Source of the DNA: Branchiostoma floridae
Taxonomy: Eukaryota; Chordata; Leptocardii; Amphioxiformes; Branchiostomatidae
Direction: 5' to 3'
DNA: 64,000 nucleotides
Assembly: GCF_000003815.2 (NCBI RefSeq)
Contig: NC_049988.1
Coordinates: 16,269,778 to 16,333,777 of the forward strand
The translations under genes were made by a program, and so were the position numbers. Numbering within the stretch: position 1 is the stretch's first letter; the number at the start of each line of letters is the position of its first letter. Below, in pieces: positions 21,801 through 52,382 of this stretch. The notes under the pieces were generated by a model that ran no database searches, had not been told where the DNA came from, and saw nothing but the letters and a program-made list of their open reading frames with translations.

Positions 21801-24469
21801 GCTGTCGCACCGCGTGCCTGCGAAGCTGGTGTGTTACGCCGAAGTGACTTAATAGATACAGATACATGTTGGGTCACTTCGGCCGAAATCTAAAAAAAAG
21901 GGGGGGGGGGGATCCCTATCTACCGATCGTTTTTTTCAGGACAGGAGTCGGAAACATAAGTTTTGTATTCCAGGCGCAGCTGACCTGCATGAAGTAGAAG
22001 ACGAACTTGCACATGCTCCTGCCCAGAGTCCAGCTGGTGGTAGCAAACATGTAGGCCGTGAAGGGCGAGCAGAACACGAGAAACGAGAGGTCCGCCACCG
22101 CCAGGTTCACGATGTAGTGGTTCGTCGGCGTCTTCATCTCGTTATATCTAAGGGAGCGACAAGACATCGAAGACCTCAAATCTCTCTGAAATTTTTTTTA
22201 AAACTCCTGGAAGGAGAGTAACCTCCTGACGGAGTATTGTGGTTGGGGTTGTTCTGCTGTTTGTACCGGCTATATAGATATAGATATAAAAGCTGGTGTG
22301 TTACGGCGAAGGGTGGTCATACCGACTATAGAGATACAGATACAGAAGCCGGTGTGTTATGGCGAAGGGTGGTTACACCGGCTATATGGATGCAGATATA
22401 AAAGCTGGTGTGTTACGGCGAAGGGTGGTTACACCGGCTATATAGATACAGATACAGAAGATGGTCTGTTACGCCGAAGGGCGGTTACACCGGCTATATA
22501 GATACAGATACAGAAGCTGGAGTGTTACGCCGAAGAGCGGTTATACCGGCTATATAGATACAGATACAGAAGCTGGTGTGTTACGCCGAAGGGCGGTTAC
22601 ACCGGCTACATAGATACAGATACAGAAGCTGGTGTGTTACGGCGAAGGGTGGTTATACGGGCTATATAGATACAGATACAGAAGCTGGTGTGTTACGGCG
22701 AAGGGCGGTTACACTGGCTACATAGATACAGATGCAGAAGCCGGTGTGTTACGGCGAAGGGTGGTTATACCGGCTATATAGATACAGATGCAGAAGCTGG
22801 TGTGTTACGGCGAAGGGTGGTTATACCGGCTATATAGATACAGATGCAGAAGCCGGTGTGTTACGGCGAAGGGTGGTTATACCGGCTATATGGATGCAGA
22901 TATAAAAGCTGGTGTGTTACGGCGAAGGGTGGTTATACCGGCTATATGGATGCAGATATAAAAGCTGGTGTGTTACGGCGAAGGGTGGTTATACCGGCTA
23001 TATAGATACAGATGCAGAAGCCGGTGTGTTACGGCGAAGGGTGGTTATACCGGCTATATGGATGCAGATATAAAAGCTGGTGTGTTACGGCGAAGGGTGG
23101 TTATACCGGCTATATAGATACAGATGCAGAAGCCGGTGTGTTACGGCGAAGGGTGGTTATACCGGCTATATGGATGCAGATATAAAAGCCGGTGTGTTAC
23201 GGCGAAGGGTGGTTATACCGGCTATATGGATGCAGATATAAAAGCTGGTGTGTTACGGCGAAGGGTGGTTATACCGGCTATATAGATACAGATGCAGAAG
23301 CCGGTGTGTTACGGCGAAGGGTGGTTATACCGGCTATATGGATGCAGATATAAAAGCTGGTGTGTTACGGCGAAGGGTGGTTATACCGGCTATATAGATA
23401 CAGATGCAGAAGCCGGTGTGTTACGGCGAAGGGTGGTTATACCGGCTATATGGATGCAGGTATAAAAGCCGGTGTGTTACGGCGAAGGGTGGTTACACCG
23501 GCTATATATAGATGTAAATATGAAAGCTGGTGTGTTACGGCGAAGGTTGGTTACACCGGCTATACAGATTTGTTCGTGCAGAATCTGTCAGGTTTTATGC
23601 TATATCATATGATAAACAAGACGACCGTACTTGGTGATGATGTAGATGACCAGTGTGTTGACGGACACTCCCACGGCACCGATGATAGCGAACAGCGCGG
23701 GCACCACCCAGGCTTCCGGGCCCAGATAGGCGTCCACAGGAGCCACTTCATACTCCGTGGTGAAGTTTCCTGTCAAGGAATGAAATATAACGTAGGTTGT
23801 AAACAATGATAAATCAAGGTCCAACCAAAATGATGATGATGGCAAGACAGGACAATGCTATTTCCTAGGGGGTTGTTCTACACAAACAGTAATATGAATG
23901 GTACGACGTACACAGAATCAACTCATTATGAAATAAACCGGTAAACACAACAGTAAAGAGAATAACCAAACTTAAATTGTTGAAGAGATTCATTAGTCAC
24001 ATATGTACACAGTTAATAGAATTTTCATTAATCATTGATTGATTGAATGAATGAATGAATGAATGAATGAATGGATGGATGAATGGATGCATGCATGCAT
24101 GAATGAATGAATGAGTGACCGACCGAACGAACGAATGAATGAATCAATCAATCAATACAAAGATAGATAGATAGATATATCGATAAGCATATCATTCAAT
24201 AGATGGATAGATCTATCGATATCATGCTGAAATTGTGTAGTGTAGTGAAGTGACCTGTCAATCAATCAATCAATCAAACAATAAATCAATCGGTCGATTC
24301 ATTCATCAATAGATCGATTGTCAATCTCTGCAAAGAGGCCAGGCAGTACGGAAGAAGAAGAAAGCAAAAACTCTGCCACACCTGTTCTGTTGTTCCAGCT
24401 GGTGTCCAGAAAACCGTCGGACCACAGGTCCAGGTCTGGCGGGAGGATGTCTGCATCTTCCAGCTCCAT
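12877..24469 (-). CDS. Rhodopsin-class neuropeptide GPCR, kisspeptin/GPR54-like
   Basis: Complete nine-exon gene, coding order 24469-24382, 23769-23631, 22147-21985, 21173-21038, 17001-16916, 16525-16331, 15883-15806, 14012-13849, 13219-12877; 1392 nt, 463 aa, all GT-AG with consistent phases. The extracellular N-terminus has sequons at N27 and N31. TM1 spans about 50-75 with N67. TM2 has LAVADL (D95), and W115 lies in ECL1. C122 probably pairs with C202 in ECL2. TM3 ends in SVDRY with DRY at 146-148. TM5 and a basic ICL3 (RKKRK) are in exon 6. TM6 has CWLP (284-287), and TM7 has NPILY (326-330) followed by helix 8 and C347, a possible palmitoylation site. The C-tail is about 113 residues and Ser/Pro-rich. 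The QVTVEASC...SVDRY stretch and RTPRSALV after DRY resemble kisspeptin receptors; galanin, spexin or allatostatin-A receptors are the alternatives. It is a plasma-membrane peptide receptor; ligand and G-protein choice are not visible. Confidence 0.9.
13260..13372. repeat. Short near-perfect hairpin MITE bounded by TA
   Basis: Two arms of about 48 nt are inverted: TAGCCTGGTAT...GCCGTAATATAGCTC on the left and GAGCTATATTACGGC...ATACCAGGCTA on the right. It lies in the last GPCR intron, 41 bp upstream of exon 9. One arm of the same family recurs near 28970-29010. Confidence 0.75.
13401..13584. repeat. Intronic repeat, partner of an inverted copy at 23798-23979
   Basis: This block (AATTTAAGTTTGGTTATTCT ... 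AACAACCCCCTGGGAAATAG ... GATTTATCATTGTTTAC) recurs in reverse complement at 23798-23979. The two copies lie in the last and first introns of the same GPCR gene. Confidence 0.75.
14785..15430. repeat. Degenerate foldback element related to that at 50405-51614
   Basis: It contains ATTTTCTCGGAAATGCAG, GGCCATGTTGATTTGATTA, and later an inverted-type block GAAGGCAATTTTTTTAGGGCC...GAGGATGTCAT. All match the arms of the larger foldback in PLA2-2 intron 2. It lies in a GPCR intron (exon 7-8). Confidence 0.5.
17686..17906 (+). mobile_element. tRNA-derived SINE, copy 2
   Basis: The head CCAATGGCGGAGCGGGTAGG and GGTCGTGAGTT (degraded B box) is followed by the same body as the copy at 6293 (TTCTCTGCTTAG, ACACATCACTACCAGCGGAC, GAGATGGGCGCCACC) and the tail GGGCAACTTTAACGTTTTAA. 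It lies in a GPCR intron, antisense to the gene. Confidence 0.65.
18318..18402 (-). mobile_element. tRNA-like SINE head (minus strand)
   Basis: On the minus strand a tRNA-shaped stretch has GGCGTCGTGGGTTGCACG, then GAGATCCGGCTGCCCGGG, then a perfect B box GGTTCGAATCCCGGG. No clean acceptor stem closes, so it reads as a SINE head rather than a functional tRNA gene. Confidence 0.4.
18447..18753. mobile_element. Foldback element with TTAA flanks, about 307 bp
   Basis: Arms of more than 90 nt are inverted (GGTGGGGTCACACATGC... and ...GCATGTGTGAACCCACC) and both ends abut TTAA (18443-18446, 18754-18757). TTAA duplications are known for piggyBac and Kolobok elements. The inner arm segment AGTCTCTACCAGG...CAGGTCGCGGG resembles the ends of the element at 53646-54328. 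Confidence 0.7.
20025..20464. mobile_element. Foldback element with AAGGGG...CCCCTT ends
   Basis: Left arm GGCCCCTTCACACGAGAGC...GAATGAGCC...GTCAGAATGAAAATTCTT; right arm in reverse complement ends GGCTCATTCCTTCTCGTGTG, AAGGGG. It is a non-autonomous inverted-repeat element in a GPCR intron. A clear target duplication was not identified. Confidence 0.65.
20676..20801 (+). mobile_element. Non-LTR retrotransposon ORF2 C-terminal fragment
   Basis: A 41-codon open segment ending in TAA reads RNKSWNDF...RGPNIWNNLPPDIRTAP and then LASFKRLLK. The WN-LP-x-x-x-R-x-A-x-x-x-x-x-FKRxLK pattern is the usual C-terminus of LINE reverse transcriptase proteins. A LINE-like 3' UTR follows (GCGGCCTGCAGGCCGATTCG). 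It is 5'-truncated and dead, antisense to the GPCR. Confidence 0.75.
21431..21592. repeat. Near-perfect TCTCCAAGCAGA hairpin element
   Basis: Arms of about 50 nt are almost identical in reverse complement: TAGTCTCCAAGCAGACCCTA...GATAGTATTTC-type sequence on one side and GGGTCTGCTTGGAGACTA on the other. It is the best-preserved member of this family here, so probably the youngest. Confidence 0.75.
21593..21870 (+). mobile_element. LINE 3' end fragment (family whose tail forms the 56-bp minisatellite)
   Basis: The degenerate coding stretch RNSHAFKYQSY, RRIDVFK, then SLDSFKERLQIDVQ resembles a non-LTR reverse transcriptase C-terminus. It is followed by CAGCTGCTGTCGCACCGCGT and one copy of the GCTGGTGTGTTACGCCGAAG unit. 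The same block, inverted, occurs at 27000-27425 and 35825-36130. It lies next to the minisatellite in GPCR intron 2. Confidence 0.65.
22260..23575. repeat. 56-bp minisatellite array, about 23 units, GPCR intron 2
   Basis: Tandem units of 56 bp (starts 22292, 22348, 22404 and onward), each with G(C/T)(T/C)GGTGTGTTACGGCGAAG followed by GGTTATACCGGCTATAT. Two variants differ in the last 16 bases: type A ends AGATACAGATGCAGAA and type B ends GGATGCAGATATAAAA. Because 56 is not divisible by three, the long open frames over it rotate and are not real proteins. Confidence 0.95.
23798..23979. repeat. Inverted partner of the 13401-13584 repeat, GPCR intron 1
   Basis: Reverse complement of the block at 13401-13584 (shared GTAAACAATGATAAATC, CTATTTCCTAGGGGGTTGTT, AGAATAACCAAACTTAAATT). 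It ends about 29 bp upstream of the coding exon 2 boundary on the minus strand. Confidence 0.75.
24030..24310. repeat. Mixed tetranucleotide microsatellites (GAAT, GATA, AATC)
   Basis: Runs of GAAT/GATG (24044-24120), GATA (24160-24178) and AATC (24255-24290) in the first GPCR intron. Low complexity, no coding potential. Confidence 0.8.
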
Positions 24470-25152: not shown

Positions 25153-26523
25153 ATTGCCAAGTAATTGCGGCGGGTCGTTCAAAGTACGTGTAATAAACAA
25201 GCTATATTCGCGTGTCTGCACAGAAGGCAATCAAAACCAAAAAAAAAAAAAACACTTGATGTTTTCTTACTGTCTTGGATCAAGGGTACTGTTACAAAAC
25301 TCTTCAGTTCAGTGAACTCAACTCATTTAGCACACGTCAGATAGAAACCAAAATTTGGTATTTTATTTATCCAAGCTATGATATGATATTTTGATATCTT
25401 CAAACTCTCAAAACAGGGACGATAATCTGAGACGTCTTATACATACAGGGTTGTAGCCAGCCTGAAATCATTTTCAGTCCTCTTGATTTTGAATGGGAAT
25501 CCTATCGAGCACCGAAGGCATGGCGTAACGTTGCGCGTCATTTCTAGGGGGTCTGGGTCCCAGAAAATGTTTTAATCAAGACCCTCTGAAACAATATTTC
25601 CTGCATTTTGAGGTGCAGATTTTGCTTGTAGACTAAGCTGTTCAATGACATTTGTTTTGGTGAAGAAGAACACATGGGTTTCAGTTTTTAATATCTTTAC
25701 ATATCAATTTCTGCCTGTCCCAGGGGACGGAATGGGGAAGACTTTTTTCAGTCCCCAGGTGCAAAATTCCTTCAAAGGACTGAAGGACAGTTGCTGGCTA
25801 CAACCCTGTATACATATACTTAGATTTCATACTGAAGGCAACCTTTTTGCCAAATGTTTTTTATTCGCACGCTCGCACCAGTTTTGCAGGGCTCATAGGG
25901 GATGTCATCCAAATAATCAAATCAGCATGGCCCTAAAATGAAAAGTAAAAAAAAAACATGACAAAATTCAAGACGTCTTAACACACGCCTGAAGACGTGG
26001 CGGCGACATCCTGTGGTTGCAGTTCATGTAGGACAAGTAGCACAGTTTTCTTTCAAGCTCGCGTACTGCCCTACTGCAGGGACCGCGTGACGACTAAGTC
26101 ACATGTAGTTCTTTCATTAACCTCAATACAGGGCACTGCAAATGGATGATTCAATTTTTCTAGAACTGTCGGATTAGTGTACGTCCTTGAGTTGCTTGTG
26201 TTATCGCATTTACATGTAAAGAAGAAATTGATTGAGTCAACCAGTCTTAAAATCTAGGTGCGAAAAATTTAGTTCCGTCAAAAAAATGGATTATCTGTTT
26301 GAAAAGTATCTTCTTTTCGAAAGACGATCTTTACTCTCGTCTCTCGTGTCTTTGAAGTTTTGATACATCAAAGTTGCTCGTGTTGTCACGTTTAATGGGA
26401 ATAGAATGAATTTATCTAGTCAACCAGTCGTAAAATCTAGCGCGGAGTTGCAAAATTTAGTTCCGTCACAAAAAGTTGATTATCTGACGTTTGAAAAGTA
26501 TCTTCCTTTCGGAAGACGATCAC
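25153..26523. other. Region between the two promoter-like cassettes
   Basis: No coding exon is supported. It includes a remnant of the 50405-type foldback (25825-25935, GAAGGCAAC...GGATGTCATCC) and two divergent copies of a CAACCAGTCxTAAAATCTAG ... TTAGTTCCGTCA stretch (about 26238-26300 and 26420-26490). Confidence 0.45.
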
Positions 26524-29944: not shown

Positions 29945-30235
29945 GTTAGCTGGTGTGTTACGCCGAAGGGCGGTTATACCGGCTATATAGATACAGATAC
30001 AGACGCTGGTGTGTTACGCCGAAGGGCGGTTATACCGGCTAATAGTATATAGATACAGATACAGACGCTGGTGTGTTACGCAGAAGGGTGGTTATACCGG
30101 CTATATAGATGCAGATACAGAAGCTGGTGTGTTACGCCGAAGGGCGGTTATACCGGCTATATAATTACAGATACAGAAGCTGGTGTGTTACGCCGAAGGG
30201 CGGTTATACCGGCTATAGATATAGATACAGATACA
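29945..30235. repeat. Second array of the 56-bp minisatellite, about five units
   Basis: Five units of GCTGGTGTGTTACGC(C/A)GAAG...GGTTATACCGGCTATA, separated by TAGATACAGATACAGA spacers of slightly variable length. No LINE coding block flanks it directly, so it may have spread as a tail or a gene-conversion tract. Confidence 0.9.
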
Positions 30236-30985: not shown

Positions 30986-31497
30986 ATGCACACACAAATG
31001 CTAGCATGCTGAGAATTGCTGGTGAATGAAAATGGTTAACAGGTCTTTTTCATCAACAGGAAACGGTGTTATACACCGTCCATTGGGGGTGGGTACCTGT
31101 ACGAAAAATTCAGGTCCAGGTCCGGTCCAAAGGATCAGGTCCAGGTCCAGACCTGAACCTGGACCTGATTCAGTATGTGAGAATTGGTGAATTGACAATA
31201 CTCAGAACAATGGTCCATTCAGCTACAAAGAAATCTGTTTGGTTGAGTATTTGAGTACCATTGGCGTTTTAAAATCCTACAAGGCTAACTGCAACTGTAC
31301 GATTGACAGTAAAACTTGGTAGAGATTACAATAAACTGTACTCTACTTCATTCTTGTTATTTTCTTCAACCTGTAATCCCCCAAAATGTGAATATCTGTC
31401 TCTATAATCTTTTCATTTCCTAATATACGGTCACCGAATTTTTACATGTCCAGTTTTTCTGGACCGGTCCAATAAGAAAAACCGGTTTTGTACCGGT

Positions 31498-33949
31498 GTG
31501 ACAGCGTTCTCGCCCCCCCGTGAAATCGACCCCCCGGGGGCAAAATCACTAGTGTTTTCGCCCCCCCCGGGGCAGGATCACTAGCGATTTCGCCCCCCCA
31601 TCTCGCCCCCCTCTGGTGATTTCGCCCCCCTCCCGGGGCGAAATCGCTAGTGATATCGCCCCCCCACCGGGGCGAAATCGCTAGAGATATCGCTCTCCCC
31701 TCCAGGGGCGAAATCGGTAGTAATACCGCCCCCTCCACTCACAGCGAAGTTCAACTCTAGTGTTTTCGCCCTCCTTACCCTCTTGGGGCGAAATCGCTAG
31801 GGATTTCCAGTGATTTGCATCCTTCTAGTGATTTGCATCTCCAATAAACCTATAAGTTACATTACTTTTGCTTCGTACAAATCACATCATACCTCCATGA
31901 AATATTTTTAGCTCTTGCAGATTTATAGTGTCATCTAGTCTCATTCATAATGCAAATGAAGCTGTAATTGACACGTTTAAGTTAACACGTGTGCAGATAC
32001 TTTCGTTTAGCTGCATTTTATGATGACATTTTGTCCTGAATTAAGAAAATGACTTGCGCATTTGCACAATCTATACATAGTGGTGCACAATTAATTTGCA
32101 CATTGCACTTTAGAATTTTTGTACTTTGACATTAATTATGCAAATCAGAATCTCATTTTCACAATCATTATCTGATATGTTTCACCTTCCATAACCTTTA
32201 AATTACATAGATTACGTGTATTAAAGTCACAACATGGAAACACTAGAATTACATATTCGTCTCCTGAATCATGCACATTATGTGCTAATTTGCATTTTTG
32301 CATGTCATTTCGTAAAGCCCATGCCACTTATCCCTTATATCATGGTATGTGAAGGTAAAAAGAAAAAAGGGAAGTTCTGTTTCAGTGACACAAGCAGATT
32401 ACATACATGTATCTGTAATTAGCACATGTTGTTATCTATGAAAAATAATTAGTTATGAAATATATTTGAGAATGAAATCATTTCGTCAGCCAACAATGAC
32501 GTCCAACAAGTATAGGATCCATTATGCTATTTTGGTCGACAGACTAACCAACAAACACAGGTACAGAACCATTGTGCAAAATATTCTGTATACCATACGT
32601 TCTATTCCGCATCATTTTTACAAGATGATAAGTATAAAAGTTACTGTACAAGTATTATATAAGTTTTACAAATAATCTTAAAGATAATGGATACAAACAT
32701 TTAATGCTAGGTTCGCTCCGAGAATGATGCAAATATCCTCAATTTGGGCTCAAAGAGGAAAGTGTTAACCCCATACGCTACGTTCAATATCTTTACTTCA
32801 TGTCTGAGACCCTAATCACCACACTGCACTGTGCAGTTTTGCTCGCATCTACGACTGCATTGTTCCTATTGTTACCTTCGCCAAGAAGTTTCACTTTATA
32901 TTTTGGGTAGCGTTTCGAATTCTGTGTGTATTTGTGGAAAAGCGCCATCACTCAAAACCGCCTGCATTTTGTGCCTCCTAGCGGCTTGTTATTGCAGCGG
33001 AACTTCCGATATGGATATCTCGAGTTATGGACGTGCTGTTGTCATGCTTTTTAATTTTTAGCGTTAGATAGCACATGGGGCCGACAGCAAGTGGTGTATG
33101 TTTGGGTCCCCTAGCAGCTTGTTACCTTTGCACAGGAAGGCTATATTTTTTTAACTGCAGGGCTGGTTTAGTGTGAGACTGTCAAAACTGTTAGTTTTGA
33201 ACAGCACAATTTGTTTCAACTCATAGACAGGTGTGTATACCTCTGTGCTGATTGGCAAATATTTACCAGTTTTGTTATAACTCAGCAACAGGTGTGTTGA
33301 TATGCATATGTTAATATACGTTCGTGATGTTAATAAAAGTCACCACAAATTCACAACAAAAATGTATCTGTTCTATTTCAATGCAAAGTGTGCTTGCACC
33401 CAACCAGGTAGGATCGGCTTCACAGGTACTGTATCTCATCTTAACATACTAAGGTGACATACCAGGTAACACACTATATACGTTACATCCAAGTACCATA
33501 TTGTTCCAGGTAGCTCGATTAATATGCAGTAACAAGCTGCAAGTTAAGTATCTTAAGGCTATGTAAAAAAGTAGGTAAATATATACAAAAGTATATATAC
33601 ATATATCTATAAGTATATATATATATATATATATACCTATATATATATACAAAAGTATATATATTTCCCTTGTAAACCCTATATATATAAGTATATATAT
33701 ACAAAAGTATATATATACAAAAGTATATATATATATATACAAAAGTAGGTAACAAGACAGTGCTAATCATTATCACAGCAATAGGATTAAGATTCAACCG
33801 AACACTCTAGAAAACGGGAAGGATATCCCTAGGGGGGGCGAAAACGCTGGGATTGGGGGGGGGGGCGAAAACACCAGAGGGGGGCGAAAACGCTAGCGAT
33901 CTCGCCCCCCGGGGGGGCGAGATCGCGGGGGGGGCGAGATCGCTGTCAC
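31498..33949. mobile_element. Large foldback element built from palindromic CG-rich units (2.45 kb)
   Basis: Termini GTGACAGCG...CGCTGTCAC are inverted and flanked by exact 6-bp direct repeats ACCGGT (31492-31497, 33950-33955) inside a hAT MITE. Each end carries an array of G/C runs around CGAAATCGCTAG(C/T)GATTTCG-like palindromes (31500-31810 and 33830-33945). The 2-kb middle is AT-rich, includes a TATA microsatellite (33590-33745), and has no transposase ORF that I recognise. It is probably non-autonomous. Confidence 0.8.
33590..33745. repeat. TATATAC/AAAGTATATA microsatellite
   Basis: Runs of GTATATATATAC and CAAAAGTATATATA within the foldback interior. The short open frames over it are low-complexity artefacts. 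Confidence 0.85.
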
Positions 33950-33999
33950 ACCGGTACACCGTACCAGTACACACCCCTACCGACCATCATTCATCGAAG

Positions 34000-35824
34000 A
34001 CAAACGTCTGCATCGGAGCAGCGAAAAAGCGATAGGTTATTGGCGGGCAAAATGTGATTGCCCTCGGTAAAATTGGAGCCCAGATTCAGTATCTAGGTTT
34101 TCTAACCCAATAACATACAGCCTAATGCACTGCACAACAAATAACGAAGACGAAAAAGTAGTGGTATTTTACAAGGTTATCAAATCTCCTTTTTGCTACT
34201 GATGGCTAATGGAAAAACTCTTAGCTGAAGCAAAATATTTCAGGAAACCATACAATTTTTCAGAAAAATCCAGCGCCGAATGAATCTGGTTACAAACTGT
34301 ATTGATATCATTACATGTACATGTATATACGAAAGAGAGGCGAACAGATACCTCGTAAGAAACCGTACCTACCGTACACAGCTGCGCCTGTAATTTTCTC
34401 AGAAGGCAACACGAGTTTTCCCGGGAAGAAGACAGTGAGGAAATTACAGAAGACAGCTCCTGAGCTTCTCTTTTTATAGCAACAGCTTCTTATTAGCGTA
34501 TTTCAGGCGTTGTCAGGCAGCTAATTTGGACCATTCCATTTCAAACATTGCCTGGAAGTGGGGGTACGGGTGGCCGGTTAGTGAAATGAGTTTCTTTACT
34601 AGGATTCAATGAAAGGGAGACCAACAAGGACCAAGGTGTTGAACTTAAATTGTGTTATGGCATAGAGAAGAAAGATTTGCTACAAATGCAACCCGAGCAA
34701 CGAGATGAAAAAATGTTCGGTCCACCCCTTCGTTATTTTGTTTGGAATGACCCAACGCCGTGTTATAATTTCATTCCTTTTCACATCTGTGGCAACAAAT
34801 ATGTTTCCTTGGTAGCGACATATATAGGTGGACTTCAAAGATGAAATGTATCGTACACAAGGAAAAAACATAACACTCTTGACTGATAGAGCTATTGACA
34901 CTCAGAATAGATTTCTTTAGTATGTCAGCTTCATTGCTATAGTCCGCTCCCTTGTTACGTTCCAAACCGGGGCCTGGTCGGGATGTTTACGGGAACGATA
35001 AATAAAAGTGTTTATGAGGAAATATACAAAAACCATGCACATAAGCTTTTTACGTTTTGTGTGTTTTGTTGTTTGCTTTTTGTTCCAGCAAACAACCTGA
35101 CTAGGTCTCGGTTTGGAAACGCATAATACCTCCCTCACATTAGGCGAAAATCGAACGTGCTACCACCTGATATGATCTTAATAAGAACGATATTGGCTTC
35201 ATATTTCTTGAAAAGCAATCTTGATACGGCCTTAATAGGATCGACATTTGCTTCACATTTCTTGAATGACACTCTTACGGAACATCCAGCGTGCCTCCAA
35301 GGTGTTTCCTTTGATGTCCAGGAAGATGATAGAGATGACGGGCCTAACATCCTGTTTCCCCTCAGGCTGCGCGGTCTGTTTGTTTGATTTGATTACAGGA
35401 GCAATATTTGAAAGACTTTGTAGTCTTCCTTCCCTTGATGAACATGGATCTGTTACGACCAGGACCTCGTGTAAAATGAGCGTGTATCTCACTGCGCTGT
35501 GCCAAATACACATTTCTCACGCGGCGGCCATGAATCTGATAAATCTAAAACGAGTTCAATGTTTGATGAAAGCACGTTACCAAATGACGTTATCAAAATT
35601 ATATTTTTTAACGAAATTCGAAGGAATTTTTCGGTTATTAGGTAACACATAACACAAGAAATACGTTTTTCTTCAAAATTCTACAACTTTAGAAAGTAAT
35701 GAGTTTTTAAGTTCCAATTCTTTAGTATTCTTTTTTAGTAAAAAACATACATTGTTTTCCTGCCAAAAAAGGCTACCTATGAGGTCTTGCAATTGTGTAA
35801 TACGTATATGTTGATTGGCCACAT
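34000..35824. other. Gene-free stretch with scattered repeat remnants
   Basis: No coding exon is supported. A loose inverted pair (TTCCAAACCGGGGCC near 34960 and GGTCTCGGTTTGGAA near 35105) suggests another degenerate foldback related to that at 36859. Otherwise I see nothing specific. Confidence 0.4.
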
Positions 35825-36130
35825 CATCTGCATCTGTATCTGTATCTGTATTTAAAAAGCCGTTATAACCGTCCTTCGGCGTAACACACCAGCTTCGCAG
35901 ACACGCGGCGCGGCAGCAGCTGGTTATATTATACTGAACGATCCGTCACAACTTACTTTTGCACATCTATCTGCAAGCGTTCTTTGAAACTATCCACAGA
36001 AGGTGCCACTACTGTGCTTGGTAATAACGAATTCCACTGTACGATAATTCTGAAAAAAAAAGCAACGAATTTTTGAACACATCAATCCTAGGTTGGTAAT
36101 TCTACTACTTAAAGGCATGGCTGTTTCTTG
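35825..36130 (-). mobile_element. LINE 3' end of the minisatellite family (minus strand)
   Basis: A short (TACAGA)n-type tail at 35825-35855, one 56-bp unit remnant (CGTCCTTCGGCGTAACACAC), GACACGCGGCGCGGCAGCAG, then the degenerate coding end up to about 36130. It is collinear with 27000-27425. Confidence 0.6.
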
Positions 36131-36674
36131 CTGCATTTTGGGCGTTAGATCAACCTAGTACATACATGTACATCACCAAGTACCTTACAGACATGTCTTT
36201 AATCACACGACACCACTTTCTTCCCAAACTAACCTTTAGATGTTCTGTGTGCGTGATAGCAGGGTATCAAAGGGAAGCCATCGTCATAGCTAAATGTCAA
36301 TAATAATGAGGAATAATCACAAATAATCTCGGCTCTTTTGTGGTGTTTGATTTAGTACGTCAGAGCCTAGTTTTTATTGTATTGAAGTTTGTTTGCTTCG
36401 AATTGCTCGTACGTAATGCATACCCGGCGAACCACCTTATATTTTATGTGAAATAAAAATTCCAGCCCTCTATGGCATTCTTAATGTCTGCTATTTCTCA
36501 GTAAGCTCGCTTGTCCATGGTATTTTTCCTTTATGTTCATTTCATCTTATTACGTTACATCTTATTTCACCTTATTAGCGTAACAATATTACGTAATATG
36601 CACTAATGGAAATCTGAATAAAACAAACAAATAAACAAACAAACGAGTGGTATTGATTGAATTAGAATATCTTG

Positions 36675-36828
36675 GTCTGACTACTGCCCTGTGCCAGGTA
36701 TGCAGGGGTCGACGTGCCTATCCACGACGGGGTTATAAAGCCCCTAACATACCCTTTCGCTGGCTAATTTCCATGGAAATATTCCTTAGTTCAGACCCCT
36801 GCAGACACAGGGCAGTAGTGACAGGGCA
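36675..36828. repeat. Small foldback with CTGACTACTGCCCTGTG arms
   Basis: TGACTACTGCCCTGTG (left) and CACAGGGCAGTAGTGACA (right) flank GTCGACGTGCCTATCCACGA. The inner block recurs alone at 37310-37375 (GTCGACGTGCTCACACACGA). Confidence 0.55.
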
Positions 36829-36858
36829 TACTTTTTACAGGGAGGAACGGCTCTTCCT

Positions 36859-37085
36859 TCCCCTTTCAGGCTTAAGTTACATTTCCAAACCGAGGCCCGC
36901 CGGGCAGCTTTTCGGGGCGAAAGGAATAATATAAAAGACATCAAAATACATACACAAAATGTCAAAATAAGATTCATGTACATGATAGGTGTTTGTTTTT
37001 TCCAGGTATGCATTTCAATTTTTCGTTTCTCAAAACATCCCGGCCGGGCCACGGTTCGGAAATGTGACCTAAGCCTAAAACGGGA
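36859..37085. repeat. Foldback with CCCCTTTCAGGCTTAAG arms
   Basis: Left arm CCCCTTTCAGGCTTAAGTTA...ACCGAGGCCCG and right arm CGGGCCACGGTTCGGAAATG...CTAAGCCTAAAACGGGG are inverted over about 40 nt. No ORF. Confidence 0.55.
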
Positions 37086-37609
37086 CCACCATTTTAGGCC
37101 CCTTTCAGACCTAAAAGACGGGTGCACCCAAACTGAGGTGCACTACGCACCCAGGATTGAACCAGGGTCTCCGAGTTACCCGCTACATGTACTGTCTTTC
37201 AAACCACGAGCATTATCAGAAATAGTAGTCGTAGTTTTCAGATGTCATATCTTATCTTATCTTATCTTATCTTACAGCACAATATATTCATCATCATCAT
37301 CATCATCGGTCGACGTGCTCACACACGACGGGGTTATACTGCCCCTAACAGGGTGATATACCCTTTCGCTGGCTAATTTTTTTTCTATTTTGCTCTTGGA
37401 CAGACGAGGACAATGTGGCGCTGCACTCAAGTTTTGTAACTTATATTAACAGTGCCACATACACGGTACAGACAGAAGGTAAAGATAGTCTTTTATCTCC
37501 CCGACCGAAGTCAGGTACCCATTTTTACACCTGGGTGGCTAATTACAAGACCAGGTCTCCCTACAGAAGCTAGGTACTCATTTTTCACCTTAGGAAAGGG
37601 AGGAAAGCC

Positions 37610-37705
37610 TTTTCCCAAGGGCACAAGATCGGTGACACGGCGGGATTTGAACTCGAGACCTCTCGGTCCTGAGCCAAACACGCTACCCCTGCACCACACG
37701 GTCTC
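37610..37705 (-). mobile_element. tRNA-like SINE fragment (minus strand)
   Basis: On the minus strand a tRNA-like GTGTGGTGCAGGGGTAGCG (A-box region) is followed by a B-box-like GAGTTCAAATCCCGCC, continuing into GATCTTGTGCCCTTGGG. A similar GGGCACAAGATC...GATTCGAACC fragment is at 10635-10730. Confidence 0.45.
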
Positions 37706-37731
37706 ACACATCTCAGAATATCTAAATCTTA

Positions 37732-38030
37732 CAATATCTTAGAGAGTAAAAAAAGTTTTATGTTCAATACATTACAATAAACCTTTATGTCACAATATCT
37801 TAGAGAGTAAAAAAAGTTTTATGTTCAATACATTACAATAAACCTTTATGTTACAATATCTTAGAGAGTAAAAAGTTTTATGTTCAATACATTACAATAA
37901 ACCTTTATGTCACAATATCTTAGAGAGTAACAAACTTTTATGTTCATTACATTACAATTAACCTTTTTGTCATATCTTAGACAGAAACAAACTTTTATGT
38001 TCAATACATTACAACAAACCTTTATGTTCA
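37732..38030. repeat. ~60-bp tandem repeat, five units
   Basis: Units of 58-61 bp with ATATCTTAGAGAGTAA, TTTTATGTTCAATACATTA and CAATAAACCTTTATGT. The first three are nearly identical; the last two have diverged. It lies directly upstream of the LINE fragment at 38122. Confidence 0.9.
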
Positions 38031-38451
38031 ACACACGCCGAACTGTCGCCAGAATTTTGGCTTTCATTGTGTCCTTCGGATTTTTTCAGATCGCGCGAAC
38101 AGATTTTTTTTTCTCCGACACTTGAGGGACCGAAAGTTGAGACCAAATTTCTGTGAGAGCTGTTTGATTCGTTCTCCCTTTGCCAGCAGGCGCATGTACA
38201 ATACTGTATTTACTGGTGATCATGACTGGATTAATCATGTTAAAGACATTCTCAATTACCATGGCTTTGGACATATATGGGTGAAACCTGAGTCGTATAA
38301 ACTAGATTACATTGCCGACCAACTTCGCTACCGTCTACAAGATACATTTATACAGGAGTGGTTTGCTCGCATAAAAAGCAATTCAAAACTGTCTTTTCTT
38401 AACAAATCGAAAAAGTGTTATGAACAAGAGACATACCTTTATGATATATAT

Positions 38452-40283
38452 GTCACAGGGGAGATTGGAATCCAGGGGGATTCGGAATCCTCCTAGGGGA
38501 GATTGGAATTCCAATCTCCCCTAGGGGAGATCAGAATTCCAATCTCCCCTAGGAGGATTCTGAATCTCCCTAGGGGAGATTGGAATTCTAATCTCCCCTA
38601 GGGGAAATTGGAATTCCAATCTCCCCTAGGAGGATTCTGAATCCCCCTAGGCCACACCAATTTAATTGCTTGGTTCACGGATTTTTTCATAAAAAATATG
38701 GAGCGAAAGGGCGAAAAAAAATAAAAATGAAAATTGTGAAATGGTTGGGTTAAAGATAAGGGCTAATGCAAAACATAAAGAATAAAAAGTTTTCAGCTTG
38801 AAAAAAGCACAAAAACACTATTACTGTACAGTAACAGCACCTGTTCGTTGAAAATTACAAAAGTAGTGTCAGTTTATATGTTTGTCCCATTCTGAATGAA
38901 TGAAAAATATAACTGCAATAATAATACCCACATTTCAAGGAGCTAATAATATAAAGGCCAATTTGCTACACCAGAAAGTTGTTGAATGGATTCATTAATG
39001 GTGAAAATTTGTTGAATGGTAATTTTTATTTTTATTTTGATTCATCAAAAAATAGGAGCGAGCGAATCCTTGAACCAAGCAATTAAATTGGTGTGGCCCT
39101 AGGGGAGATTGGAATTCTAATCTCCCCTAGGGGAGATTGGAATTCTAATCTCCCCTAGGGGAAATTGGAATTCTTCTGTATTTCCAGTCTCCCCTAGGGG
39201 CATTCCAGATTCCCTAGGGGACATTGAAATTCTTCTGTCATTCTACTGCAATTCCAATCTCCCCTAGGAGAATCCAGAATTCTCCTAGCTAAGGAGAGAT
39301 TGGAATTCTACCAGAACTATACTCAAGGATGTTACACTATTGTCACTTTTACAATTATACTGAAGGATACCAAACTTGTGTCACTTCTACAACGTTAACT
39401 ACACTTAAGTCTGACTATTGAAAAGTACTGATCTGAATAGGTGTGAAACTGTAACATCTTGAAACTGTGATTGATATTTTGGCATTTTGGCACTTTCTGA
39501 TCACTTTTCAGTTGTTATTGTTCTTCCAAAGTTGCAAAATGATTCTATGTCAATGTTAACTACACTGAAGTCTGACTGTTGAAATGTACTCAATAGCTGT
39601 TAATTTTGCCAAATTTTGAACTGCAGGCTTTGATTGGAATATGACCTCTAAAGTATGGAGTCACTAACTTATAATGGCATATGCAAATGTGCTGATTTAC
39701 ATATTGGTGACATGTGCATACCATTATATAATTATGAGTTAGTGACTCAAATGATTCAGTCTACTTTCCAAAACAATTTCATCCATTCTGATTATTGGTA
39801 ACATCAAAGATTGTCCTGGTAGAATTCTGGATTCTCCTCTATTACTAAATGTTTGAAAATATGATGTTTAATGAGCTATAGTATAGGATAATGTGCTATT
39901 GTACACTATAGAGAAGTATTCTTAACCTTAGATTGTCAGCAAAAATGATAAGTGTTAGATATAAAGCATAAGATATGGTGATTTATTCTTAGAAATAATT
40001 ATAAATCCTCTGTTGCATTGTTTGAAACTTTGAATCCATTCATGGTAGATTCAAAGATTATCCTGGTAGAATTCCAATCTCTCCTAGGGGAGATTGGAAT
40101 CCCAGTAGAACTCCAGAAGGATTCTAATCTCCCCTAGGGGAGATTGGAATTCCAATCTCCCCTAGGAGGATTCCAGATTCTCCTAGGGGAGATTGGAATT
40201 CTGATCTCCCCTAGGGGAGATTGGAATTCCAATCTCCCCTAGGAGGATTCCGAATCCTCCTGGATTCCAATCTCCCCTGTGAC
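38452..40283. mobile_element. Large foldback element built from GGGGAGATTGGAATTCC palindromes (1.83 kb)
   Basis: Inverted termini GTCACAGGGGAGATTGGAAT / ATTCCAATCTCCCCTGTGAC are flanked by exact 6-bp repeats ATATAT (38446-38451, 40284-40289). Subterminal arrays (38456-38645, 39099-39300, 40070-40275) repeat a ~29-bp palindromic unit with centres GAATTC and CCTAGG. The middle (39310-40060) is AT-rich with no ORF. It carries its own nested MITE at 38650-39098. Confidence 0.85.
38650..39098. mobile_element. MITE with GGCCACACC ends and 3-bp duplication, nested in the foldback
   Basis: Termini GGCCACACCAATTTAATTGC and GCAATTAAATTGGTGTGGCC are perfect inverted repeats, flanked by CTA on both sides (38647-38649, 39099-39101). 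Removing it with one CTA gives back the array junction CCCCTAGGGG. A 3-bp target duplication with GG...CC ends fits PIF/Harbinger-type MITEs. Confidence 0.8.
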
Positions 40284-41411
40284 ATATATAACTTTGAAAT
40301 TCGTAAAGCGATAACCCAGTTAAGAATCAGCAGTCATAAATTGAACATAGAAACAGGCAGGTATCATAATGTAGCACCTGACCAAAGGTTTTGCCCATTC
40401 TGTCCAAAGCAAATTGAAGATGAATTTCACTTTGTCATGATGTGCAGTAGGTACAATGTTTCACGTAATGAGTTATTCACATTCCTCGAATCAAATACAA
40501 CAGATTTTAAGAGACTCAATGATACAGACAGATTTGATTATATATTCAGATGTAATAACTCCCACAATGCTAAAATAGGCAAATATATAAAAGACTGCTT
40601 TATCATAAGAAAAAATGCCGAAACTCATAATTAGCCCCACTCGATTGTAATACAATATCAATGATTTAGGCTAGCTCTTATTGTTCTAGAAATTAGGATG
40701 CCAATTATTTTATTCTATATTCATAATCTGCATATGTACTAAGGTTGATACTCGTTTTAGTAATAAGGATGATAAGTTTGTTTCTTCTTTTTTTTTGCCA
40801 TACATTGTACCGTGTACGATCGTTGCGCAATAAAGTTCTTCTTCATGTATTGTGAACGTGAAACTCCAGATCACTCGAAAAACAACGCGTGGTGGTGACA
40901 GTTAGCTACGTAGAAAACCAGGAAGCCAGAGGCGTCTGGTGCATCTGATCTCACAGCAGACAGCAGAAGCAAAAAGCACAGATTAAAGAAGCAGGAAGAA
41001 GTTCTCCGATTGGTTGCTGACGTCATTTCCTTTCTTCCGGAACGTCAGAGCTCAATCGAATCAGACATCTGAAGAAGGTCAACGAATTTCACCGAAAATT
41101 TATGGTGATTTTATTTCTTTGTGTTGTAACAAGGCTTAAACTTTACAACTATGGATTCTACAGACACAGATGAGCTTTCATTCGAAGTTCTTCTTTATTT
41201 TATCCCACCGCTGTGCAACCTGACTGTCATGTCTGTTTTATTGTCAGGCACTATGGCCAATGAGGACGAACGTTAACAATTTGACAGTACATTTACAAAA
41301 AAACAAACAATAATCAAGTACTTAAAATTAAAATACAGGATTCGCACTGTACGTGGTCTGTGTACGACGTGACAATAGTTATTCCAGAACTTGATTATGG
41401 AAACAACATAT

Positions 41412-42652: not shown

Positions 42653-43019
42653 TAGGGCTGGCAGATACGGTCCAGGTCGAGAGCATCAGGTTCCGGTTTG
42701 TGAATGGCTGATTCTGTTCGGTGGAGTATCCTATCTTCACGTGAACGACGCTAACTGTATCTGTTAAAGTAGACCAAATTTGACTGTAGAAACTTAGTAA
42801 AAGTAACTGTCAACTCTCATCTACTTTGTTCTTGTTATTTTCAGGAACCAATAAGCCTCAAAACACGTAAACGCCTGCCACCATAGTGCAGATATAATCT
42901 GTTCATTTTCTAATCGGTCCAACATCCAGTCACTGAATTTTGTCGGGTCCGGTTCTTACGGACCTGTCCAACAAAACGACTTGTTTTGTACGGGTACACC
43001 GTACCGGTACCCACCCCTT
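42653..43019. mobile_element. hAT-type MITE, 367 bp, exact 8-bp duplication
   Basis: Left end TAGGGCTGGCAGATACGGTC, right end ACCGGTACCCACCCCTT, flanked by exact GTCAATAC at 42645-42652 and 43020-43027. Internal GGTCC/GGACC blocks match the copies at 4668, 31084 and 50706. Confidence 0.85.
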
Positions 43020-49561: not shown

Positions 49562-52382
49562 ATGTTGGTCTGGACTGGTCTGGCGGTGTGCCTAACAGTA
49601 TACATGGCGCTGGTGACACCAGGTATTTATTCGTCTGACACTTATACAATGTGAAATGCACTATGCCGCCATATTTGCTATTATGTTAGATTAGTATACT
49701 GATGTAGATAGTTTGTAGTTGTTAGTAATACATGTTGTTTGCCATACATTGTACCTGTTACAATCGTTGTGCAATAAACTTGACTTGATTTAACGCATAC
49801 CTGACTGAAATCAGAAGAAAAATTCTATTTGTTTCAGAATAAGTCCCAGTTGAACGTTTATGTAAATGGTTTTCGTGGCTATCTGGTCACTTTTTGGTGG
49901 TATTTTGACAAGAAGGACCCCCTGTCCATTGTTTTCATTTTCTTTGTGTACGTCATTTGAGTGATCCTCACTGATAAGTTTGTGAATTTTTTTACGATGC
50001 TATGAAACTATCCAAGGCCTAAAAGATAAAAAAACTACTGATAATTGACCGTCTTTATAACTATCATATGATCTACTTTTCGTATCTTAAAAAGTGTTTT
50101 TCTTTTCTCGTTGTGTGTCATAATAGGGACGTACGCTAAGCCCCCTGGGAATCTAGCAGATTCCACAAGCAACCATCTGCCCACCGGAGAGAACCGGGCT
50201 TTTTGGCAGTTCGGCGACATGATTAGTTGCGCCACCCAGCGGAGTCCGTCAGATTACGACGGGTATGGCTGCTTCTGCGGATACGGGGGTGGTGGAATTC
50301 CCATGGATGACGTCGACAGGTAAGCGCCAAAAAAATTTAGTGATCAGTTATTGTTTCTTCAAACAGTAGATGCTACATACGTACAAAGAACAAAAAGGGA
50401 ATGACATTTCCGAGAAAATGCAGGATGTTTCCTTCCCCCTAAAACCAGGATTGCTTCTAAGGCCACGTTGATTTGATTATATGGATGACATCCGCGCTCG
50501 CACCAATTTTCGGCCATTTCAAAAAAAAAAAAGTTTTCGACCACACATTAAATTGTGCAAAGCAGCTGTAGAATGAGCACAAATATTCCGTAGATTGAAA
50601 AAAAAGTATCAGAAAACAGATAACTAATGCCATAGAATGCCAAAATAAATCTAAAGTCAAAGAATAAGATGTGAAAGGACAGAAAGAAGAAAAATCTATT
50701 GTTGGTTGGGGGAGGTACTAGTACAGAAAATTCAGGTCCAGAGGATCATTTCTAGGTCCGGACATGAACCTGGACCTGATTGTCTGTGGAAACTTGAGAA
50801 CTGGCAATACTCAAAACATTGGTAATTGGTCAATTTTGCTACAAAGGAATCTGTTTGGTGGATTATTGGACCACTGCATTTTAAAATCCCATCTCCATGT
50901 TATAAAGGCTAACTGTCTCTGTACCTTTGACTGTAGAAACTTGGTGCAATTGACTATAAACTCTACTTGACTTCGCTCTTGTTGTCTTCTTGGCCCCCCG
51001 GTTAGACCCCAAATGGCTGCCGACATGCATAGTGTGTCCATTTTGTAATTGGCGAAACCTGTTCCTCTGTTGTTGTTTTTCAGGTCTGTTTTATTCGGAT
51101 TGGTCCAAGAAGAAAAAAATGTTTTGCACCCGTATGATGTACTGGTCCCTACACCTAACTGTTGGTATACCGTACTATGTGTGTTTAGTCCTATGTTCAA
51201 CCTTCCTAGCCACTTTGATTTCATACTGAAGGCAACTTTTTTTTTTTGGCCAAACTTTTTTTTTATTCGCTCGCTCGCATCAGTTTTGGAGTTCCCGGAG
51301 GATGTCATCCATATAATCAAATCAACATGGCCTAAGGCGTCGCGAAAAAAATTACATAATTTTGTGCAACTTTATCCACGAGGTGGCCTATATCCATCTC
51401 ACTTGTAATTAAAAATATGGGATTTAGGAATATCACGTCGACATATATACGGTGGTTTCAACTTGAAATATTTTCAAAACATGATACTTTGTAGCCACAG
51501 TCTGTCGAATATAGATTACTCATGTGGATGAAGTTGTACAAATCGTTTTTTGGCAACGCCTTAGTGGCGAGCCTGGTTTTTGGGGAGGGAGAGATCCTGG
51601 ATTTTCTCGGAAATGTGGCCTTTCTAGTTCTAGTCATTTGTTTACCCACACAGCTTTCTTCTCCTTTTGAATATTATATATTTGGAAATGTGCATTCGTG
51701 TCTGCCTCAGGTGCTGTGAGGAGCACGACAGCTGCTATGGTTTGGTGATGGAGGAATGTGGGAGTATGTACCCGTACCTGTTCTTGTACAGCAGCACCTG
51801 CGAAGAGAGGAGGATAACTTGCCGTGAGTGGGATAAATATTTTGTTCACAACTGCATCTTTATGTTTACTTTCATGGAAGGGCAACATTGCGGTTGCGAT
51901 TTTTCTTCTTCTTCCTCTTCCCGCTTCAAACAAATAATGCCAATGACCTGTACCAGACGTCTGTCACCATGGTTACTGGAGTTGCGGCACACACCCTGTG
52001 ATGTTCCATTACATAATGTAGCAACTTGAGAAAGCCCGAGTGGCTGGTCATTGTGATGACAAAATGTGTAATGAGTAAGGATAAACAGATTAGTAGTTTG
52101 TTTGGCTAGACCATGTGAAGGTAAACACTACGTACATGTATTTACTTGCAATTGTTACATTAAGTTTAATGTTGCATAAAAAAAACATATACAGGTGCAT
52201 ATAGAACTCATTGTCATAAAAAAAGTGCGATGATTTTTTTCTGTCTTGCAACTGTAGATCCTCCTTGGTGGTCGTGGTCCCAATGCCCCATGATGCTTTG
52301 CGAGTGTGACAAGATGGCGGCCTACTGCTTCGCCGGGCATCACTACAACCCGGACAACTATGGGAGATGCGATGCACCATAG
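49562..52382 (+). CDS. Secreted phospholipase A2, cluster gene 2 (group IB-like)
   Basis: Exons 49562-49622, 50127-50319, 51711-51823, 52258-52382; 492 nt, 163 aa, phases 1-2-1. A signal peptide covers about residues 1-21. A short propeptide ends at ENR, followed by AFWQFGDMISC, which looks like the mature start of pancreatic-type (group IB) enzymes. The calcium loop is [11 protein letters not shown] (67-77), the active site CCEEHDSCY (His90, Asp91), and CECDK gives Asp140. It is a calcium-dependent secreted lipase, with no visible inactivating change. An in-frame upstream ATG at 49538 would add eight residues; 49562 is chosen for the better signal peptide. AATAAA at 52398 and 52416. Intron 1 holds a LINE tail and intron 2 a foldback with a hAT MITE inside. 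Confidence 0.94.
49680..49800 (+). mobile_element. LINE 3' tail in PLA2-2 intron 1
   Basis: GCCATACATTGTACCTGTTA...TCGTTGTGCAATAAACTTGA matches the 3' tail of the LINE at 38122-40636 (GCCATACATTGTACCGTGTA...TTGCGCAATAAAG). The corresponding stretch is missing from PLA2-3 intron 1, so it inserted after the duplication. Confidence 0.65.
50405..51614. mobile_element. Foldback element in PLA2-2 intron 2
   Basis: Left arm CATTTCCGAGAAAATGCAGG ... GGCCACGTTGATTTGATTAT ... GGATGACATCCGCGC; right arm GAGGATGTCATCCATATAAT ... AACATGGCC ... CTGGATTTTCTCGGAAATG. It is disrupted by the hAT MITE at 50706-51157. Related fragments at 14785-15430 and 25825-25935. Confidence 0.65.
50706..51157. mobile_element. 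hAT-type MITE nested in the foldback
   Basis: Left TTGGGGGAGGTACTAGTAC, right GTACTGGTCCCTACACCTA, flanks ATTGTTGG (50698-50705) and ACTGTTGG (51158-51165), a 7/8 match. The interior CAGGTCCAG and GGACCTGATT match the other three family members. Confidence 0.75.

Follow-up and report, generated by a model that had tools for sequence, protein, structure and literature searches.

The two long foldback sequences in a 64,000-bp stretch of the amphioxus Branchiostoma floridae (contig NC_049988.1, positions 16,269,778 to 16,333,777; the whole stretch is referred to here as the window) are best interpreted as non-autonomous cut-and-paste transposons moved by Ginger-type transposases, that is, by DDE enzymes resembling retroviral integrases. 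The first foldback, el1, appears to be a Ginger1-like element and the second, el2, an internally deleted Ginger2 element, and we would put the probability of this reading at about 0.87. A sequence-only reading of the window had proposed that the two belong to one undescribed transposon group with palindromic 6-bp duplications of the target. Two described Ginger groups were matched instead, el2 being assigned by protein evidence and el1, more provisionally, by its termini and target, and the proposed new group is removed; the look of 6-bp palindromic duplications is explained by a 4-bp site together with the terminal T and A of the elements. In the description of the Ginger elements (Bao et al. 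2010, PMC2836005), Ginger1 has TGTNR ends, terminal inverted repeats (TIRs) of 40-270 bp and a 4-bp target-site duplication (TSD) of CCGG (75%) or CCGT/ACGG (24%), Ginger2 has TGTNR ends, a 4-bp TSD and the target RTATAY, and both groups occur in B. floridae.

Termini, targets and empty sites

Both foldbacks are DNA transposons with similar termini and lie where the sequence-only reading had placed them. With their flanks they read ACCGGT-GTGACAG...CTGTCAC-ACCGGT (el1, 31492-33955) and ATATAT-GTCACAG...CTGTGAC-ATATAT (el2, 38446-40289) in the window sequence. The terminal T and A are counted here as bases of the element; after this correction of the boundaries el1 begins with TGTGACAG and el2 with TGTCACAG, ends which agree with the TGTNR ends of Ginger elements. 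The terminal arms of el1 extend over 71 bp at 84.5% identity, compared with a published TIR of 77 bp in the 4,068-bp Ginger1-1_BF and within the range given for that group, and those of el2 over 163 bp at 93.9% (170 nt at 94% was also obtained), compared with 161 bp in the 6,110-bp Ginger2-1_BF and a Ginger2 range of ~50-180 bp (PMC2836005). By itself the motif GTSACAG is not enriched in the window (16 matches against 15.4 expected); its meaning lies not in its count but in its position, at the terminus of both inverted-repeat pairs and of numerous copies in the genome.

The genome from which the window comes (513 Mb in 431 contigs) was searched with patterns of these termini. The el1 pattern CCGGTGTGACAGCGWTCTCGCCCC had 660 exact matches and the same pattern reversed, which served as control, had 0. 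Patterns extended outward gave 543 el1 ends, of which the first 100, all on contigs C1-C4, were tallied (the listed ends of what follows), and 65 el2 ends, all of which were tallied; both sets leave out ends with G ten bases out. T precedes GTGACAG at 100 of the 100 listed el1 ends and the three bases beside GTGACAG are GGT at 99 of them. The core of four bases is CCGG at 81 of these ends, CAGG at 16, GTGG at 2 and CAAG at 1, with A (57), G (17), T (16) or C (10) as the base outside it. At the el2 ends T precedes GTCACAG in 64 of 65 cases, the core is TATA (43), CATA (8), TATG (6), TTTA (2), GATA (2), TATC (2) or another sequence (2), and a purine lies outside it at 63 of the 65, which fits RTATAY. 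The palindromic target preference claimed earlier is well founded as regards the core, this being the palindromic part of the site; the 6-mer as a whole is palindromic at 41 of 100 listed el1 ends and 25 of 65 el2 ends.

The repeat that houses el1 recurs at 42780-43018 and 50762-51157, in copies 66-69% identical to it and gapless across the el1 junction, and a third copy, ending at 4684, extends one base beyond the junction. Since its relatives run across the junction without a gap, bases like ACCGGT predate the insertion of el1. el2 breaks an open frame, presumably LINE-like (long interspersed nuclear element) as judged by eye, which resumes in frame with the target counted once; Pfam gave no significant family for the half of this frame at 37981..38451. 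Such empty sites are proof of insertion. The palindromes at them are nested, however, so that duplications of 0, 2, 4 or 6 bp would leave the same empty site, and the length is decided only by pairs of ends with non-canonical cores. A TA duplication with longer TIRs, of the Tc1/mariner-like kind, was rejected, as the el1-free relatives of the host repeat retain the six bases that it would take away. The host repeat is itself related to a hAT-like miniature inverted-repeat transposable element (MITE) at window 4660-4972 (8-bp repeats GTAGGGAC, TIR TAGGGGTGGGTA), and four el1 copies elsewhere (L011, L012, L020 and L028) lie, by eye, in the end of the same repeat.

The two ends of a copy could be compared in 36 el1 pairs: 17 from 16 fetched loci and the window copy, 18 among the listed ends, and one extra. 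Four of the 20 fetched loci (L014, L015, L025, L027) were dropped when the pattern found no right end, and some fetched copies are broken by runs of N. The extra pair comes from an inspection of ten partnerless ends, two of which gave a partner, one already being in the set of 18; the single ends L089, L090 and L092 (no alignment) and L081 (degenerate) are in no pair count. For el2, 20 of 22 pairs were counted, L037/L038 being omitted for a damaged left end and L055/L056 for want of a clear end. The same 6-mer flanks both sides in no more than 5 of the 36 el1 pairs (4/17, 1/18 and 0/1, respectively) and 6 of the 20 el2 pairs, and a 6-bp duplication is therefore rejected. The T/A beside GTSACAG is as constant as the element, and the position outside the 4-bp core varies independently on the two sides. 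As the targets are palindromic and the terminal T...A often equals the adjoining target base, a 4-bp site mimics a palindromic 6-bp duplication; that both copies in the window have A and T in the outer positions, as few others do, is a coincidence.

A 4-bp duplication is shown statistically for el2. Its core 4-mers are identical in 14 of 20 pairs (p 0.0007 in a shuffle test that exchanged right ends between copies), and of the ten informative pairs four have duplicated a non-canonical core (CATA three times, GATA once) and six have not. The counts of CATA against TATG (8 and 6 ends) and GATA against TATC (2 and 2) have the symmetry expected of a true duplication. The idea that neither element duplicates its target was rejected in the case of el2, given its duplicated CATA and GATA cores. 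The core 4-mers of el1 are equal in 25 of 36 pairs (12/17, 12/18 and 1/1), all of which are uninformative on duplication because they have CCGG on both sides. It is suggested that the enzyme acting on el2 would recognise the TGTCACAG termini and join the element to RTATAY sites, and that a 4-nt stagger at joining would produce the 4-bp duplication, usually of TATA. el1, as a Ginger1-like relative with TGTGACAG termini, is found mainly in NCCGGN sites, in which A is the commonest outer base.

A coding relative of el2 and the status of el1

The sequence-only reading had envisaged a transposase of the DDE type, and one is encoded by a copy with the ends of el2. In this copy, L093 on contig C16, el2-type ends lie 6.1 kb apart with TATA on both sides; its length is 6,118 bp, including a run of 264 N, and that published for Ginger2-1_BF is 6,110 bp (PMC2836005). 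An ungapped comparison of its own ends gives 95 matches over the first 100 bases, after which they drift, and the subterminal part of el2 can be aligned with it over 723 columns at 88% identity. An open reading frame (ORF) of 584 aa (L093 2406-4157, minus strand) matches the integrase of prototype foamy virus (PFV; E 1.3e-14) and the Pfam families rve (E 1.3e-7; 32.2 bits, just below the cutoff of 32.6) and Integrase_H2C2 (E 1.7e-5; 25.3 bits, just below the cutoff of 25.5), with D94, D153 and E190 as DDE residues. H2C2 and DDE integrase domains are likewise present in Ginger2/Tdd (PMC2836005).

The same protein occurs at C5:27284226-27286181 in two stretches of 99% identity (query 1-306 and 436-584). 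An el2-type terminus lies 2.4 kb away from this second copy, at C5:27288584, and over 106 bases it has 99% identity to the L093 end; a search of 601 bases did not reveal the other end of the copy. In all, the genome search with the Ginger2 protein gave 77 matches, many of them weaker (~26-35% identity) and mostly in long open frames, and the weaker ones were taken, by frame length alone, as integrases of long terminal repeat (LTR) retrotransposons. Among the fetched loci L093 alone had a tblastn match to this protein; L114 and L115, which are el2-type pairs 4.1-4.3 kb apart, had none. With Ginger2/Tdd (PMC2836005) el2 shares TGTNR ends, the 4-bp TSD and the RTATAY target, and it differs in its length of 1.8 kb, its palindrome arrays and the element nested in it. 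On this comparison el2 appears to have arisen from a Ginger2 transposon by internal deletion, and the protein of its coding partner may be what moves it. At its C-terminal end the L093 ORF contains a cysteine-rich stretch, CACKGSCISNKCRCKKAGIPC, which has only a weak Pfam match, to CSRNP_N, and which we take to resemble a CXC/tesmin motif.

el1 likewise has the TGTNR ends and CCGG-centred site of Ginger1 (PMC2836005), and its termini and target suggest that a Ginger1 enzyme may move it. It has no ORF of at least 150 aa, and the 16 fetched copies in which both ends are present, some of them with runs of N, have none of at least 170 aa. The el1 copies (L009-L028) include a 2.4-kb form and shorter forms that lack el1 positions ~310-1690, and a frequent form of 1.1-1.2 kb is visible as end spacing among the listed ends.

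A number of observations weigh against the Ginger interpretation, and most of these concern el1. Neither tblastn with the Ginger2 protein nor an ORF scan of the fetched copies revealed a coding copy that bears el1 ends, and in this respect el1 differs from Ginger1. Among the fetched el1 loci, several of them with runs of N, none matched the Ginger2 protein in tblastn, a search which a Ginger1 integrase could escape at the published 24% identity; by eye, none of the 77 genomic matches lies near a listed el1 end on C1-C4. The second target of el1 is CAGG (16 of 100 listed ends), unduplicated, instead of the published CCGT/ACGG (PMC2836005), which is found at 0 of 100. A duplicated CAGG is expected to appear as CCTG at the far end, and CCTG is present at 0 listed ends. 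At CAGG/CCTG sites a duplicated non-CCGG core is seen in 0 of 10 pairs (4 fetched, 6 from the listed ends), and the remaining unequal el1 pair, L012, is CCGG/GGGG. The el2 family also departs from Ginger2/Tdd in that the cores are unequal in 6 of 20 pairs.

Half-site asymmetry and alternative explanations

When el1 and el2 are taken together, the cores are unequal in 17 of 56 pairs, and the deviating base is in the outer half of the core in 16 of these and in the inner half in one (L012). If the halves are equally likely to deviate the one-sided p is 1.4e-4, for two families pooled and a tally made after the pattern had been seen; the difference between the families in duplicated non-canonical cores (0/10 in el1, 4/10 in el2) is not significant (Fisher p 0.087). 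Such an outer-half bias is not predicted by mutation after insertion. It could be, and we put this forward only tentatively, that a Ginger-type element takes two bases of its former target site along when it moves. On this model, cleavage of the non-transferred strand would fall two bases beyond the end of the element and leave a 5' overhang of GG or TA, which would pair within the 4-nt gap at the next palindromic site. The inner half of an apparent duplication would then derive from the donor, the outer half alone would report the new target, and a real duplication would require the mismatch to be resolved in favour of the target. Carry-over of this kind would account for the 16 outer-half differences, for the lack of a duplicated CAGG in el1 and for a self-perpetuating choice of target. 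No account of the half-site pattern was found in the literature searched, which comprised openly licensed papers, and the words 'imperfect', 'mismatch' and 'overhang' are absent from the available text of the Ginger paper (PMC2836005). Any novelty is confined to this asymmetry and is as yet unproven; if the asymmetry holds in other Ginger families, it would record directly, in sequence, how cellular integrase-like transposases process the non-transferred strand.

For el1, blunt insertion with the terminus GGTGTGACAG fits the half-site pattern equally well. The element would insert without target duplication, in the manner of Spy elements, between NCC and GGN or between NCA and GGN, and its terminus would copy half of the preferred target. 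This is in keeping with an inner GGT at 99 of 100 listed ends beside a variable outer triplet, with the 16 CAGG against 0 CCTG (two-sided p 3e-5, computed on ends) and with the 6 of 18 listed-end pairs that are at CAGG/CCTG sites, none of them duplicated. Spy elements (PHIS; PMC4482050) have been described without TSDs and have a palindromic 6-bp target, as here, and el1 has no demonstrable duplication; however, their target is AAATTT and not of the CCGG or TATA type. The TGTNR ends and CCGG preference of el1 indicate Ginger1, and el2, with termini nearly identical to those of el1, duplicates its core. Blunt insertion of el1 thus seems to us unlikely, if still worth entertaining.

The other candidates have far less to recommend them than assignment to the Ginger groups. 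Identical palindromic 6-mers do flank both window copies, as in a single undescribed group with true 6-bp duplications, but that idea is refuted by the larger sample of pairs given above and by the integrase of the el2 coding relative, which is of the kind described for Ginger2, and hardly any credence can be given to it. Nor is it at all credible that el1 and el2 derive from Crypton-like (tyrosine-recombinase) elements with the palindromic 6-mer as the crossover core between CTGTSAC and GTSACAG inverted arms: the ends do have the arm-core-arm geometry of such a mechanism, but the deviations lack the whole-core pattern expected from it and the el2 coding copy carries a DDE integrase. Polintons are large elements with a polymerase and an integrase. 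They were rejected on the grounds that el1 and el2 are only 2.5 and 1.8 kb long and that the TSD here is not the 6 bp of Polintons (PMC10045372). An IS3EU or GingerRoot element would have an integrase-related transposase, as here, and near-palindromic targets, but IS3EU termini are always TA..TA with a TSD usually of 6 bp, GingerRoot is mostly TA..TA and occasionally TG..CA with a 6-bp TSD (PMC10045372), and fungal IS3EU ends are TAYGG..CCRTA (PMC12730594). Since el1 and el2 have TGT..ACA ends and a TSD that is not 6 bp, such an origin is very improbable.

Palindrome arrays and other features of the window

The claim that both foldbacks contain subterminal palindrome arrays stands for el2 and only partly for el1. 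In the left, middle and right arrays of el2 there are 4, 2 and 4 perfect palindromes (half-length at least 6), where shuffled sequences average 0.20, 0.09 and 0.19; the largest shuffle count was 2 per array, which the middle array merely equals. The units of the el1 arrays are imperfect palindromes. Its right array contains one perfect palindrome against a shuffle mean of 0.04 (largest shuffle 1), and its left array none against 0.13, with no excess over shuffles. The palindrome arrays of el2 are thus genuine, and those of el1 are less pronounced. With their CTAG centres they are subterminal repeats within or beside the TIRs, and they could be transposase-binding sites or products of slippage. 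In an amphioxus opsin gene flanked by Ginger2-1 copies, some complete and some truncated, palindromic repeats have been reported where an exon ends (PMC5802833), so that palindromes near members of the Ginger2-1 family have been seen before.

Table 1. Features of el1, el2 and their surroundings (window positions).
Position	Strand	Feature	Basis or remark
31493..31496		CCGG, left copy of the el1 Ginger1-type 4-bp site	Outer A at 31492 is a target base
31497..33950		el1, non-coding Ginger1-like foldback, 2,454 bp, TGTGACAG...CTGTCACA	Terminal repeats and genomic copies
31498..31800		el1 left subterminal array, C/G-run and CTAG-centred units, period ~32-34 bp	Tandem Repeats Finder (TRF) rows 31526-31715, 31616-31738
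33815..33949		el1 right subterminal array	Sequence and palindrome count
33951..33954		CCGG, right copy of the el1 site	Window sequence
37981..38451	+	Open frame split by el2	Frame resumes at 40290 if target counted once
38447..38450		TATA, left copy of the el2 4-bp target duplication; target ATATAT = RTATAY	Window sequence and family tallies
38451..40284		el2, non-coding Ginger2 foldback, 1,834 bp, TGTCACAG...CTGTGACA, split by nested element	Terminal repeats and L093 alignment
38452..38651		el2 left palindrome array, 28-bp units, CTAG and AATT centres	TRF, palindrome count
38652..39096		Nested MITE-like element in el2, TIR CCACACCAATTT / CCACACCAATTTAATTGCTTGG, foreign to the Ginger element	TIR and direct repeats
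39097..39310		el2 middle palindrome array	Tandem-repeat scan and palindrome count
40065..40283		el2 right palindrome array	Tandem-repeat scan and palindrome count
40285..40288		TATA, right copy of the el2 target duplication	Window sequence

The MITE-like element nested in the el2 array is bracketed by direct repeats of CCCTAGG (7 bp; window 38645-39103). Two further TIR pairs of hAT-like form, each with 8-bp direct repeats, are found at window 25438-25816 (TATACATA / CAGGGTTGTAGC) and 21423-21600 (GAACAAGA / TAGTCTCCAAGC). A 56-bp tandem unit is common to two arrays, at window 22264-23569 (23 copies) and 29948-30231 (5 copies).

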